From assembly GCA_040757205.1 (NCBI GenBank), contig JBFLXL010000013.1, positions 1 to 37,204 on the forward strand: 37,204 nucleotides of DNA, in the 5' to 3' direction. Under the pieces are notes generated by a model. The model did not search any database, was not told the origin of the DNA, and was given only the letters and a program-made list of their open reading frames with translations. Of this stretch, positions 6,882 to 11,402 are shown in pieces; within the stretch, counting starts at the first letter, position 1; each line of letters starts with the position of its first letter. Both the position numbers and the translations under genes were made by a program. The DNA comes from Bacillota bacterium. Its GTDB lineage: Bacteria > Bacillota > Desulfotomaculia > Desulfotomaculales > Desulforudaceae.

Positions 6882-7211
6882 TTAGCCTTTGGGTGAGGGC
6901 CGGATCCCCAGCTCGGCGAGGTGGTCGATGATTGTTTGCAGGTCCAGCCGCCCCCGGAGGATAACCCTGCCGTTGACGGCCAAAGCCGGCAGCAGGAAGG
7001 CGTCGCGGCGCAAATCCGCGTCCGCGATGGTCTCGAGTTGCCGGTAGGCCACCATCACCCGGTCACCGTAGCGTAAACGCAGCACTTTTTGCAGCAGCCT
7101 GAACTGGGCGTCCACGGGGAGCACGTCCCCCATGCTGTCCGGCGGTCAGCAGGGCGCCTCAATGCCCTCGGCGGTTTCACCGATCACCCACACCAAGGCC
7201 TCCGCCGGCAT
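6882..7211 (-). CDS. Candidate thioredoxin-fold selenoprotein with in-frame UGA
   Basis: The plain open frame starts only at 7133 and gives an 83-residue protein without cysteines: the C-terminal part of a small thioredoxin-like fold (LPALAVNGRVILRGRLDL is the cis-Pro/beta-hairpin region). The same frame continues upstream through one TGA (7148-7146) to an ATG at 7211 or TTG at 7232. It supplies the missing first beta strand (EALVWVIGE) and an active site reading C-UGA-PPDSM. Read as Cys-Sec it gives a 109-residue protein of normal size and order: strand, redox motif, helix, strand (DRVMVAYRQLE), helix, cis-Pro. A SECIS-like hairpin follows the UGA. It lies 54-74 bases after hydA on the same strand, so co-expression with the hydrogenase is likely. 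Alternatives are a nonsense mutation, a sequencing error, or a truly short protein. Confidence 0.68.
7113..7134 (-). promoter_or_regulatory. Candidate bacterial SECIS hairpin
   Basis: Twelve bases after the in-frame UGA a stem begins: CATGGGG pairs with CCCCGTG (one G-U pair), with the eight-base loop GACGTGCT at +19 to +26 from the UGA. Bacterial SECIS elements lie directly downstream of the UGA, inside the coding region, with an apical loop about 16-37 bases away and a G near the loop's 5' side. All of this fits. Confidence 0.55.
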
Positions 7212-7249
7212 CCCGTTCCCGGTCCCGGTCAAACCTCATCACCCCCACC

Positions 7250-7285: not shown

Positions 7286-9037
7286 CTACTCGTTCTCGGC
7301 CGGCTCCGGGTGAGCCGACCGCGGCGTGTAGCTGGTATGCAAAAGCCAGTGCGACTTCTGGCCCAGGGGTTTGCCCAGGAATCGCTCGTAAAGCTCGATG
7401 ATCGCCGGATTCTCGTGGGATTTGCGCAACTGCATTCCCTTGTCCGCGCGGTAGATCCCGGCGGCGCGCCGCTGCCGGACTTCGGGATTGGTGCCGATCG
7501 GCTGGCCGCCCCCGCCGATGCAGCCGCCGGGGCAGGCCATCACCTCGATGAAGTGACAGTCCTTCAACTCGCCGGCAACAAGCCTTTCCATCAGCATCCG
7601 GGCGTGACCCAGACCATGGGCCACCATCACCTTGACCGGGCTGCCCTCCAGGTCGACATCCGCTTGCCGGACACCGTCCGGCCCACGCACCGCCTCGATG
7701 TCGATCCCGGGCAAAGGTTTCCCGGTAACCAGTTCGTAGGCCGTGCGCAGCGCCGCCTCCATCACTCCGCCGGTCGCGCCGAATATGGCTCCGGCTCCGG
7801 TCGAGAGGCCCAGCGGCCGGTCATACTCCTCGTCGGGCATATTGTTCAGGTCGATGCAGGCCTCGTGCAGCATTCGGACCAGTTCCCGGGTGGTGAGCAC
7901 CACGTCCACGTCCCGGTAACCGCTGGCGTTCATCTCGGGCCGGCCGGCCTCGAATTTCTTGGCCGTACAAGGCATGAGCGAAACCACCACGATATCCTTG
8001 GGATCGATCCCGGCCTGCTCCGCGTAGTAGGTCTTGGCCAGCGCCCCGAACATCTGCTGCGGCGACTTGGCAGTGGACAGGTGCGGCAAAAACTCGGGAT
8101 AGAAATGCTCGATGAACTTGATCCACCCCGGGCTGCACGACGTGATCATCGGCAGCGGCCCGCCTTTCGCGAGGCGGTCGATCAACTCGTTTCCTTCCTC
8201 GACGATGGTGAGGTCCGCCGCAAAGTCGGTGTCGAACACCCGGTCAAAACCGAGGCGCCGCAAGGCGGCCACCATTTTGCCGGTCACCAGCGTGCCCGGA
8301 GGCAAGCCGAACGCCTCGCCCAGGGTGACTCTGGTCGCGGGCGCGGTCTGCACCACCACGTGTTTGGCCGGGTCGGCCAGCGCCGCCCAAACGGCCCCCG
8401 TGTCGTCCCGCTCGTAGATAGCGCCCACGGGGCAGACCAGCGCGCACTGGCCGCAGTGCACGCAGACCGACTCACCCAGGGGCAGGTTGTACGGGGGAGC
8501 GATCACCGTGGCGAAGCCGCGCAACTGCGGCCCGATGGCGTGCACCGTCTGCACGTCGGCGCAAACCGTGACGCAGCGCCGGCAATAGATGCACTTCTGG
8601 GGCTCCCGGATGATCGCCGGACTGGAGTCATCCTTCTTGTAAAGGGTCCGGGAAACCCGCTGAAACCGGATCTCCCGGAGCCCCATCAGGTTTGCGGTCT
8701 CCTGCAATTCACAGCTGCCGCTCCGGATGCAGAGCAGGCACTCGTTCGGGTGGTCGGAAAGCATCAACTCCAGGATCATCCGGCGGGCATTCCGGATGCC
8801 GGGTGTGCCGGTCCGCACCACCATTCCCTCGGTGGCGGGGAGGGTACAGGAGGCCAGGTATGTGCGCGCGCCCTCGACCTCCACGATGCACATGCGGCAG
8901 GCCCCGACCCGGTGGTTCAGCTGCTTCAGGTAGCAGAGGGTCGGAACGGCGATGCCCAGGTGCCGGGCCGCGTCCAGCACGGTGGTTCCCGGTTCGACCG
9001 TTACGGGCCGGCCGTCTATGGTCAGAGTAACCGCCAT
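7286..9037 (-). CDS. hydA: [FeFe] hydrogenase catalytic subunit (NAD(P)-linked multimeric type)
   Basis: The 583-residue catalytic subunit interconverts protons and H2. The N-terminal [2Fe-2S] domain has C35, C47, C50 and C64. A His-Cys [4Fe-4S] site follows (H96, C100, C103, C109). Next are two [4Fe-4S] ferredoxin motifs (CIYCRRCVTVC and CVHCGQCALVC), then the H-cluster domain with TSCSPGW (L1, residues 299-305), MPCTAKK (L2) and ACPGGCIGGGGQP (L3), and the small-subunit-like C-terminal tail. The L1 motif has Ser where the textbook motif TSCCPxW has its second Cys. The ATG at 9037 has GGGAGGGAG upstream and overlaps the hydB stop (TGATG), so longer versions of the frame are not real. With HydB and HydC it should form a soluble NAD(P)H-linked, possibly electron-bifurcating complex. 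Confidence 0.95.
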   Translation of the reverse strand: MAVTLTIDGRPVTVEPGTTVLDAARHLGIAVPTLCYLKQLNHRVGACRMCIVEVEGARTYLASCTLPATEGMVVRTGTPGIRNARRMILELMLSDHPNECLLCIRSGSCELQETANLMGLREIRFQRVSRTLYKKDDSSPAIIREPQKCIYCRRCVTVCADVQTVHAIGPQLRGFATVIAPPYNLPLGESVCVHCGQCALVCPVGAIYERDDTGAVWAALADPAKHVVVQTAPATRVTLGEAFGLPPGTLVTGKMVAALRRLGFDRVFDTDFAADLTIVEEGNELIDRLAKGGPLPMITSCSPGWIKFIEHFYPEFLPHLSTAKSPQQMFGALAKTYYAEQAGIDPKDIVVVSLMPCTAKKFEAGRPEMNASGYRDVDVVLTTRELVRMLHEACIDLNNMPDEEYDRPLGLSTGAGAIFGATGGVMEAALRTAYELVTGKPLPGIDIEAVRGPDGVRQADVDLEGSPVKVMVAHGLGHARMLMERLVAGELKDCHFIEVMACPGGCIGGGGQPIGTNPEVRQRRAAGIYRADKGMQLRKSHENPAIIELYERFLGKPLGQKSHWLLHTSYTPRSAHPEPAENE

Positions 9038-10779
9038 CAGCTTCTCCCTCCCTGCTTCTTGGCATTGTCGGCCTGCGCCGGGCCGATGCGCATGGGACAG
9101 GCGCCGGTAGAACACTGTTTTTCGACCGCGTGCCGCTCGTATTCGTGCCGGTAGTGCCGGGTCGTGCTCAAAACCGGGTTCCCGGCGGTCTGGCCCAAGC
9201 CGCACAGCGCGGTCTTCCGGACGGTGTTGGCCAGTTCGATCAAAAGGTCCACGTCTTCCTTCCCCGCGCGGCCCTGGGTCAGCCGGGTGAGGATCTCCAG
9301 CATCCGCCTGGTGCCGATCCGGCACGGGGTGCACTTCCCACAGGACTCGTCCTGCACAAAATCCATGAAGAACCGCGCCACGTCGACCATGCAGCTGTCC
9401 TCGTCCAGGACGATCAAGCCGCCCGACCCCATGATGGAGTCAAGCGCGGCCAAAGCCTCGTAGTCGATCGGCGTGTCGATGTACGCCGCCGGGATGGCGC
9501 CCCCCGACGGCCCGCCGCTCTGGATCGCCTTCAAGCTTTTGCCGTTTTGTATTCCGCCGCCGATACCGTATACCACTTCCCGCAGGGTGGTGCCCAGGGG
9601 CACTTCCACCAGGCCGGTGTTGACGATCTTGCCGGCCAGGGCGAACACCTTGGTCCCCTTGCTCTTCCCGGTGCCGATGCCCGCGTACCAGTCGCCGCCG
9701 CGCAGGATGATCGGGGCGATGTTCGCCCACGTCTCCACGTTGTTGATTACGGTGGGCTTATCATAAAGGCCGCACTGGGCCGGGAACGGCGGGCGGGGGC
9801 GCGGTTCGCCGCGCTTGCCCGCGATAGAATGCAGGAGCGCCGTCTCCTCGCCGCACACAAAAGCGCCGGCGCCAACGCGGATCTCGACGTTGAAGCCGAA
9901 TCCCGATTCCAAAATGTCTATGCTCAGAAGACCCATTTCCCGGGCGCTTTTGATGGCCGCCTCGAAATTCTTGATCGCCAGCGGGTACTCCGCCCGGATG
10001 TAGGCGTAACCCTTAGACGCCCCCACGGCGTAACCGCCGATGATCATTCCCTCCAGTACCGAGTGCGGGTCACCCTCCAGTACGCTCCGGTCCATAAACG
10101 CTCCGGGATCCCCCTCATCACCGTTGCAAACCACGTACTTGAGCTCGCCTGGAGCCTGCAGGGTGAATTGCCATTTCAGGCCGGTGGGGAAACCCGCCCC
10201 GCCGCGCCCGCGCAGCCCGGACTTCTTCATCTCCTCGACGACCTGTTCCCTGGTCATTCCGTTCAACACCTGGGCCAGCGCCGCATACCCGTCCCGGCCG
10301 ATGTATTCCTCGATGGAAAGGGGATCGATGATCCCACAGTTGCGGAGCACAATCCGCTGCTGCCGGTTGAAGAAGGGAATCTCGGGCAGGCGCGCCAGCA
10401 CTTTGCCGGTGTCCGGGCACCGGTGCAGCAGGCGGTTCACCGGGCGCCCCTCCCGAAAGTGCCCGGCGACCAGGGATTCCACGGCGTGAGCGGCGACCTT
10501 CTCGTAAAAAATCCCGTCCGGGTAAACGGTGATCATCGGTCCCAGGTTGCACGGCCCCATGCAGCCGGTCTCAATCACCCGAACTTTCGCTTCCAGACCT
10601 TGTTTCCTGATTTCGTCAACGAGCGCGTTCTTCACGGACCTGCAACCGGAAGAGATGCAGCCAGTACCACCACAGACCAGAGCGTGGTGCTCGTACCCGT
10701 CAACCGGCCGTTCGTTCGCCCGCAGCCGCAGCGCCTCGCGCGCCTTGGTCCGCAACCTCGCCAGTCCGGCAGTGTTCAT
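9037..10779 (-). CDS. hydB: [FeFe] hydrogenase NuoF-like flavoprotein subunit
   Basis: This 580-residue subunit carries FMN and the NAD(P)H site. An N-terminal thioredoxin-like [2Fe-2S] domain has C36, C41, C73 and C77. The NuoF core begins near residue 150, with the nucleotide loop GLRGRGGAGFPTG (188-200) and the FMN region CNGDEGDPGAFMDRSVLEGD. A SLBB segment follows, and then the C-terminal [4Fe-4S] motif CGKCTPCRIGTRRM. The protein ends soon after, with a short CSTGAC tail. The extra 2x[4Fe-4S] ferredoxin domain at the C-terminus of Thermotoga-type HydB is absent. The ATG at 10779 has AGGGGGG upstream. It lies between hydC (22-base gap) and hydA (one-base overlap). Confidence 0.94.
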   Translation of the reverse strand: MNTAGLARLRTKAREALRLRANERPVDGYEHHALVCGGTGCISSGCRSVKNALVDEIRKQGLEAKVRVIETGCMGPCNLGPMITVYPDGIFYEKVAAHAVESLVAGHFREGRPVNRLLHRCPDTGKVLARLPEIPFFNRQQRIVLRNCGIIDPLSIEEYIGRDGYAALAQVLNGMTREQVVEEMKKSGLRGRGGAGFPTGLKWQFTLQAPGELKYVVCNGDEGDPGAFMDRSVLEGDPHSVLEGMIIGGYAVGASKGYAYIRAEYPLAIKNFEAAIKSAREMGLLSIDILESGFGFNVEIRVGAGAFVCGEETALLHSIAGKRGEPRPRPPFPAQCGLYDKPTVINNVETWANIAPIILRGGDWYAGIGTGKSKGTKVFALAGKIVNTGLVEVPLGTTLREVVYGIGGGIQNGKSLKAIQSGGPSGGAIPAAYIDTPIDYEALAALDSIMGSGGLIVLDEDSCMVDVARFFMDFVQDESCGKCTPCRIGTRRMLEILTRLTQGRAGKEDVDLLIELANTVRKTALCGLGQTAGNPVLSTTRHYRHEYERHAVEKQCSTGACPMRIGPAQADNAKKQGGRS

Positions 10780-10801
10780 CAGTCCACCCCCCTACATACA
10801 G

Positions 10802-11275
10802 CTACTTGTACTGCTCCAGAATTCCGGGCACCTTTTCCGGATCTACCCCGGCGTGCACATCCTCGTCCACCGTGACCACCGGCGCCAAGGCGCAGCAGCC
10901 GATGCAGCGGACCACGTCCAGCGAGAAGCGCCGGTCCGGCGTGGTGTCTGGGGCCTTGATCCCCAACTCCTGTTCCAAACGGGCTTTTACCGCGGCCGCA
11001 CCCTTGACGTAGCAGGCGGTGCCGTTGCACAGGGCGATGCCATGACGCCCGCGCGGCCGGAAGATGAAAAAGGCGTAAAAGGACGCCGTCCCGTAAACCT
11101 CGGTCAGGGAAAGCCCCAGTGCGTCGGCTGCCTCCACCAACACGGGCTTGGGCAGGTAACCCGCGGCCTGCTGGATCTGGGAGAGCACCTGGATCAGGCT
11201 GGCCGGCTCACCGCGGTGCGCCTCTATGTAGCTCGTCAACTGGTTATGGTCGTAAAGTGGTTCTTGCTGGGGCAC
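10802..11275 (-). CDS. hydC: [FeFe] hydrogenase NuoE-like subunit
   Basis: The 157-residue thioredoxin-like [2Fe-2S] protein corresponds to NuoE/HydC and passes electrons to or from the flavin subunit. The cluster ligands are visible as CNGTACYVKGA and CIGCCALAPVV. The N-terminal helical part (IQVLSQIQQAAGYLP) is typical of NuoE. I place the start at GTG 11275 because AAAGGGGA sits seven bases before it; the frame can be extended to TTG at 11299 without a good SD. It is the first gene of the hydCBA operon and is separated from hemL by a terminator-like hairpin. Confidence 0.92.
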   Translation of the reverse strand: MPQQEPLYDHNQLTSYIEAHRGEPASLIQVLSQIQQAAGYLPKPVLVEAADALGLSLTEVYGTASFYAFFIFRPRGRHGIALCNGTACYVKGAAAVKARLEQELGIKAPDTTPDRRFSLDVVRCIGCCALAPVVTVDEDVHAGVDPEKVPGILEQYK

Positions 11276-11402
11276 GGACGATTCCCCTTTCACTGCCAAT
11301 TGGTTATTACCGCTTTGTTCCCGCTGTTCACAGAAGTTTGACGGATACCGGGTTTTTCCTGCCTTTTCTTAATATAGAGAAAATTCAGACCCGAACCAGC
11401 CC

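Follow-up and report, generated by a model that had tools for sequence, protein, structure and literature searches.

A YuzD/DUF1462-like gene of a Desulforudaceae bacterium in which an in-frame TGA very probably encodes selenocysteine

The question raised by this locus, a small gene on the minus strand of the window (the whole stretch of 37,204 nucleotides analyzed here), is whether the single TGA within its reading frame ends translation or is read as selenocysteine (Sec). We conclude with considerable confidence that this is a genuine selenoprotein gene, encoding a YuzD/DUF1462-like protein with Sec at residue 22 that most likely functions as a thiol/selenol oxidoreductase, although there is no protein-level proof and the redox chemistry is inferred. 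The coding sequence (7211-6882, minus strand) comprises 109 codons, including that of Sec22, plus the TAA at 6884-6882. The TGA lies at 7148-7146, preceded by TGC (7151-7149) and followed by CCG CCG GAC AGC, and no second in-frame stop is present between 7232 and 6885. Read with U at the TGA, the protein begins with MPAEALV, passes through EAPCUPPDS and ends in RPSPKG; Cys21 and Sec22 are its only redox residues, there being no other Cys. The preliminary description had followed the frame through this TGA and proposed starts at 7211 or 7232, and re-reading of the window confirmed the frame and recovered both an ATG at 7211 and a TTG at 7232-7230. The ATG coincides with the start position of most homologues, which align over the full length, and the TTG, with GGTGAT upstream, is conserved in the congener G046 (same genus, a single contig of 2,349,476 bp); the choice between them is undecided. 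A standard gene caller would be expected to report only the ORF 7133-6882 on the same strand, with 83 residues and no Cys.

Homologues are present in 40 of the 113 genomes of the order when a 12-row alignment is used as the query (12 of the 113 with the single window protein), and nearly all of them have a single TGA, which falls in the same column. This column is nearly invariant across the family alignment and is invariant as Sec in group A7. Among close relatives, the Sec site reads EAPCUPPDS in G046 and, in the MAGs of the same family group, GAPCUPPDG in UBA3572 (G044), GAPFUPPNG in Candidatus Desulfopertinax cowenii (G043) and EAPCUGPEG in Desulforudis sp. Kmv41 (G045); in most of the order it reads (R/K)PGUPPEGC or similar. 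Sec is therefore preceded by Cys in Desulforudis-type genomes and by Phe in Ca. Desulfopertinax; most of the order has Gly there. The Cys-UGA-Pro-Pro motif originally put forward for this locus exists in the window gene but is not a signature of the family, its first Cys being local to Desulforudis-type genomes. Since the separately assembled G046 carries the same TGA, it is already unlikely that resequencing would remove it. A related-loci query with a mixed alignment returned no conserved stretch.

The simplest objection is that the TGA is a true stop, with the ATG at 7133 starting an 83-residue protein and the upstream stretch being a leader peptide or a product of chance. An ORF of this kind does exist mechanically (7133-6882), but we give this reading almost no credence. 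Pairwise comparison of the 15 codons that precede the TGA gives 165 differences at first, 129 at second and 436 at third codon positions, so that third-position changes are in excess across groups of relatives (the count was made within nine groups, one of them invariant, and the pairs are not independent). Compared with the congener, NG86 estimates of dN/dS are 0.09/0.23 before the TGA and 0.10/0.45 after it. An in-frame TGA flanked by protein-level conservation on both sides is what is demanded of a selenoprotein, and the gene satisfies this criterion. The ATG at 7133, moreover, is replaced by GTG in G046 and is no start in either G043 or G044, which indicates that the 83-residue reading is not conserved. 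Truncation would also deprive the protein of beta strand 1 of its thioredoxin fold, judging by the AlphaFold2 model, and the TGA column is occupied by Cys in relatives devoid of TGA.

Such Cys-containing forms are found in distant members of the family; the close Desulforudis-type group showed just a Ser paralogue. Two pairs illustrate the exchange: SGGUGP of G226 against SGGCGP of the TGA-free G279 (34% identity), and CYGUANGR of G432 against CSGCQTGR of the TGA-free G490 (36% identity). When homologues were searched with the TGA read as U, as had been proposed at the outset, the upstream part thus proved to be conserved, with TGA, or Cys or Ser, at the site.

The capacity to decode UGA as Sec is evident in the genome of the window (2.03 Mb in 26 contigs, 97.5% complete), in which selA, selB, selC and selD, suggested earlier as a check, are all present. 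It has a tRNA-Sec scoring 77.5 bits, with the anticodon tca according to ARAGORN, a selB gene (344 bits) adjoining selA (625 bits) on contig 12, and two selD genes above cut-off (L148 and L149, on contigs 6 and 16). In both selD genes the catalytic loop itself contains an in-frame TGA (GGGUAAK and GSGUACK) which, together with the Sec machinery, makes it evident that UGA is read as Sec elsewhere in this organism. In the phylum sample, selA or selB accompanies the TGA form in 26 of 26 genomes vs 12 of the 21 genomes having only TGA-free forms (Fisher p 2e-4). This comparison is a hand count in which species are not independent and the selA match of G279 is partial. The nine sampled genomes that have a homologue and lack selA contain TGA-free forms only; G432, which could have been an exception as it combines a TGA form with the absence of selA, was ruled out because a full selB is present. 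In the selA-lacking genomes, a TGA-free branch (L128, L130, L133, L134 and L136) with ACC or SCG motifs, for example IIIIADGEATACCTEAPDL, matches the same profile, and its Cys pattern differs again.

A candidate bacterial SECIS (bSECIS) hairpin follows the TGA at 7134-7113 on the minus strand, exactly as initially described: its 7-bp stem, CATGGGG (7134-7128) paired with CCCCGTG (7119-7113), begins 12 nt downstream of the TGA and encloses an 8-nt loop, GACGTGCT (7127-7120), starting 18 nt after it. Published limits for bSECIS elements are a stem of 4-16 bp, a loop of 3-9 nt, a free energy of -7.5 kcal/mol or lower and a G in the first two loop positions, 16-37 nt after the UGA (PMC13188914). 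The window hairpin lies within all of them, as its loop starts with G and its energy is -11.4 kcal/mol, a value equalled or bettered by one of 200 dinucleotide shuffles; if an inner G-U pair formed, the loop would be ACGTGC, with G in third position. Taken alone, this hairpin is only marginal against synonymous-codon randomization (p 0.067), and the strength of the SECIS evidence is thus collective, deriving from the gene set. For 51 TGA-bearing genes, the mean score of the best hairpin having G as its first or second loop base, near the published bSECIS spacing, is 15.0 vs 7.1 +/- 0.7 after synonymous-codon randomization, with none of 300 randomized sets reaching the observed value or exceeding 9.2. 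In the homologues of the order, a hairpin lies about 20 nt past the TGA and shows compensatory changes in five of six pairs; in 15 relatives aligned without gaps from the TGA, it has a 6-bp stem, a mostly GG loop and 85.6% pairing. Changes on both sides of the stem occur in 17 cells vs a shuffled mean of 5.6 (0/500), and the covariation score, computed also on a nine-row version of the alignment, is 0.551 vs 0.261 when shuffled (0/500), dropping to 0.146 or less when the stem is slid by one to three columns. The window hairpin, within published limits, has an equivalent that covaries among relatives. Matches to Rfam around the Sec site were no more than chance ones.

These data bear also on the possibility that the locus is a pseudogene with a nonsense mutation. 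Second copies do decay in relatives: the tandem copy of G044 (L085, 6362-6680; L030/L032) reads EAPU without Cys and has its frame broken further on, and that of G045 (L031) has an open frame with Ser at the Sec position (ASFSPPD). The window gene can hardly be of this kind, however, for the same TGA is retained in dozens of species whose frames are otherwise open, dN/dS is about 0.2-0.4 compared with the congener and the hairpin covaries. Homologues, Sec machinery and hairpin together support the original proposal of a 109-residue selenoprotein that gene callers would shorten to a Cys-free protein of 83 residues.

To what family does this protein belong? The AlphaFold2 model obtained with a 46-row alignment (mean pLDDT 83.8) has the order of elements b-a-b-a-b-b-a, which is thioredoxin-like, with low confidence in the active-site Sec loop (residues 19-28). 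The first match in Foldseek is PDB 1xg8 (E 3.7e-3), with thioredoxins close behind; with VIA, 1xg8 ties for the first place, with Z 8.2 over 89 residues and rmsd 2.9, a Z of 8 being middling by itself. The same structure is the best PDB sequence match of the family profile (E 4e-6). It represents DUF1462/YuzD (PF07315; S. aureus SA0798/SA0789), proteins of about 105 residues that share the thioredoxin-like fold and have two Cys in catalytic position corresponding to the Sec/Cys positions of the present family; YuzD has CxxC and no Sec, whereas the family has U-x4-C, C-x4-U, CxxU or CU. Of the 46 relatives, 19 match Pfam DUF1462 at E of 0.1 or less (best E 2.1e-8), but the window protein itself has no match to PF07315, and one relative reaches 24.4 bits vs the gathering cut-off of 25. 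The scores below cut-off combined with the YuzD fold indicate a relationship with PF07315 without inclusion in it. Computation thus supports the window protein as a Sec-containing branch of YuzD/DUF1462-like thioredoxin-fold proteins. The thioredoxin fold proposed initially stands in general terms, but thioredoxins in the strict sense have a CxxC (or UxxC/CxxU) site, and the window protein, with only CU, is not one of them.

Most relatives have a partner Cys five residues after Sec (U-x4-C), and a sister group has the mirror arrangement, C-x4-U. Profile-profile comparison joins the group of the window with the C-x4-U group (98.5%, E 3.5e-15), with Sec in either group aligned to Cys in the other at each of the two positions; the two groups consequently have the same two redox positions, between which Sec has moved. 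The profile of the C-x4-U group finds 1xg8 at 1e-7, its Cys and Sec falling on the cysteines of the YuzD CxxC. Further groups in the phylum sample include NCNRTGUGPVQSQ, ACNSGGUGPKQTQ, ECYSUGTLPTQ and FGUGPARSAGCGP, among others. Sister groups with the mirror C-x4-U or CxxU arrangement (L114, L116, L117, L119 and L122, NCxRTGUGPVQSQ; L140 and L143, CxSUGTLPTQ; L124; L141) also appear to be uncatalogued selenoproteins, several with strong hairpins (14 bp in G240). It is almost as easy to accept as to doubt that the window protein belongs to a large clan of YuzD-like selenoproteins, as yet uncatalogued, of which it would be only one tip. Sec and the partner Cys would have traded places within this clan (U-x4-C being the arrangement of this order, and C-x4-U and CxxU those found elsewhere), and the Desulforudis line would have lost the distant partner and come to use an adjacent Cys-Sec pair, with a different active-site chemistry.

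No model fits any of the 46 members in NCBIfam, the scan of which took in models named after the Haft selenoprotein families; the scores seen are far below curated cut-offs, the best for a selenoprotein model being HUIPC with 18.8 bits vs 105 in one distant relative. A 2026 review catalogues 119 families of prokaryotic selenoproteins (PMC13188914), none of which is YuzD-, DUF1462- or ArsD-like or has the present motif. Its thioredoxin-like entries (PF13192 Sec.1/Sec.2, HUIPC, SaoT, UXX-star, VPGUxxT, CC/Se motif and others) are likewise small proteins with Sec in the active site and mostly of thioredoxin fold, but differ in motif and family. A search of the open papers available for the pairing of selenoprotein with DUF1462 yielded nothing, and the deep-Sep paper gives other families. 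The absence from both NCBIfam and the catalogue leads us to consider this, by the evidence at hand, a new selenoprotein family that is present in many anaerobic Firmicutes-type bacteria.

The gene neighborhood is of little help in assigning a function. The gene converges on a small heat-shock-like gene, and there is synteny between families f1 and f2, but its surroundings are otherwise variable. Upstream in the window (7286-11299, minus strand) lie apparent genes for subunits of an NADH-dependent [FeFe]-hydrogenase (NuoE-, NuoF- and HydA-like by sequence reading). A tie to this hydrogenase was rejected, as it is the upstream neighbor only in G000 (the genome of the window), G045 and G046, whereas other genes take this place in G043, in G044 and in the f2 genomes that share the synteny. 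Neighboring families vary by lineage (M48 peptidase, GGDEF, Hdr-like Fe-S proteins, QueC, acyltransferase, ABC transporter, YchF, radical SAM), and a common pathway was likewise rejected; no neighbor was found to be conserved throughout the homologues among those examined, and hence no pathway is indicated.

Sec decoding, family and fold are supported by computation, but the redox chemistry and the part played by Cys21 are inferred, as follows. SelB and Sec-tRNA(Sec) would decode the UGA at 7148-7146 with the aid of the hairpin about 18 nt downstream, placing Sec in the loop that links strand 1 to helix 1, where thioredoxin has its nucleophile; the conserved Pro75 is likely to be the cis-Pro. 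From this position, fold and proline we infer a thiol/selenol oxidoreductase, in which Sec would attack a disulfide or another oxidized (or metal-bound) substrate and the resulting mixed selenosulfide would be resolved by a second thiol. In most relatives this is presumably the Cys five residues past Sec; for the present lineage it would be either Cys21, next to Sec, or an external thiol. Catalysis is not certain, since this lineage lacks the resolving Cys of most relatives. The main rival on mechanism accepts the selenoprotein but has Sec and Cys binding a metal or metalloid without disulfide exchange, as in an ArsD-like metallochaperone or other metal handling. We consider it rather unlikely but not dismissible: the Cys-Sec pair is vicinal, the 2026 review links many selenoproteins to metals and several relatives weakly match ArsD and VcpD profiles (ArsD best E 2.1e-5 in Pfam and 2.4e-5 in NCBIfam). 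These matches remain below curated cut-offs, however, with ArsD at 15 bits vs 90 where the score was seen; the window protein, with only Cys21 and Sec22, has no such match, YuzD is the nearer structure and no arsenic or metal-resistance gene is prominent among the neighbors examined.

The finding adds a widespread family of selenoproteins that neither NCBIfam nor the 2026 catalogue of 119 families contains, with carriers that include Desulforudis and relatives, organisms known from deep-subsurface life. Gene callers shorten such proteins and thereby remove their active site. The family offers a handle on YuzD, whose function is unknown. Within one fold, Sec and Cys have been exchanged at two fixed sites, a natural experiment on the purpose of Sec in thiol chemistry.
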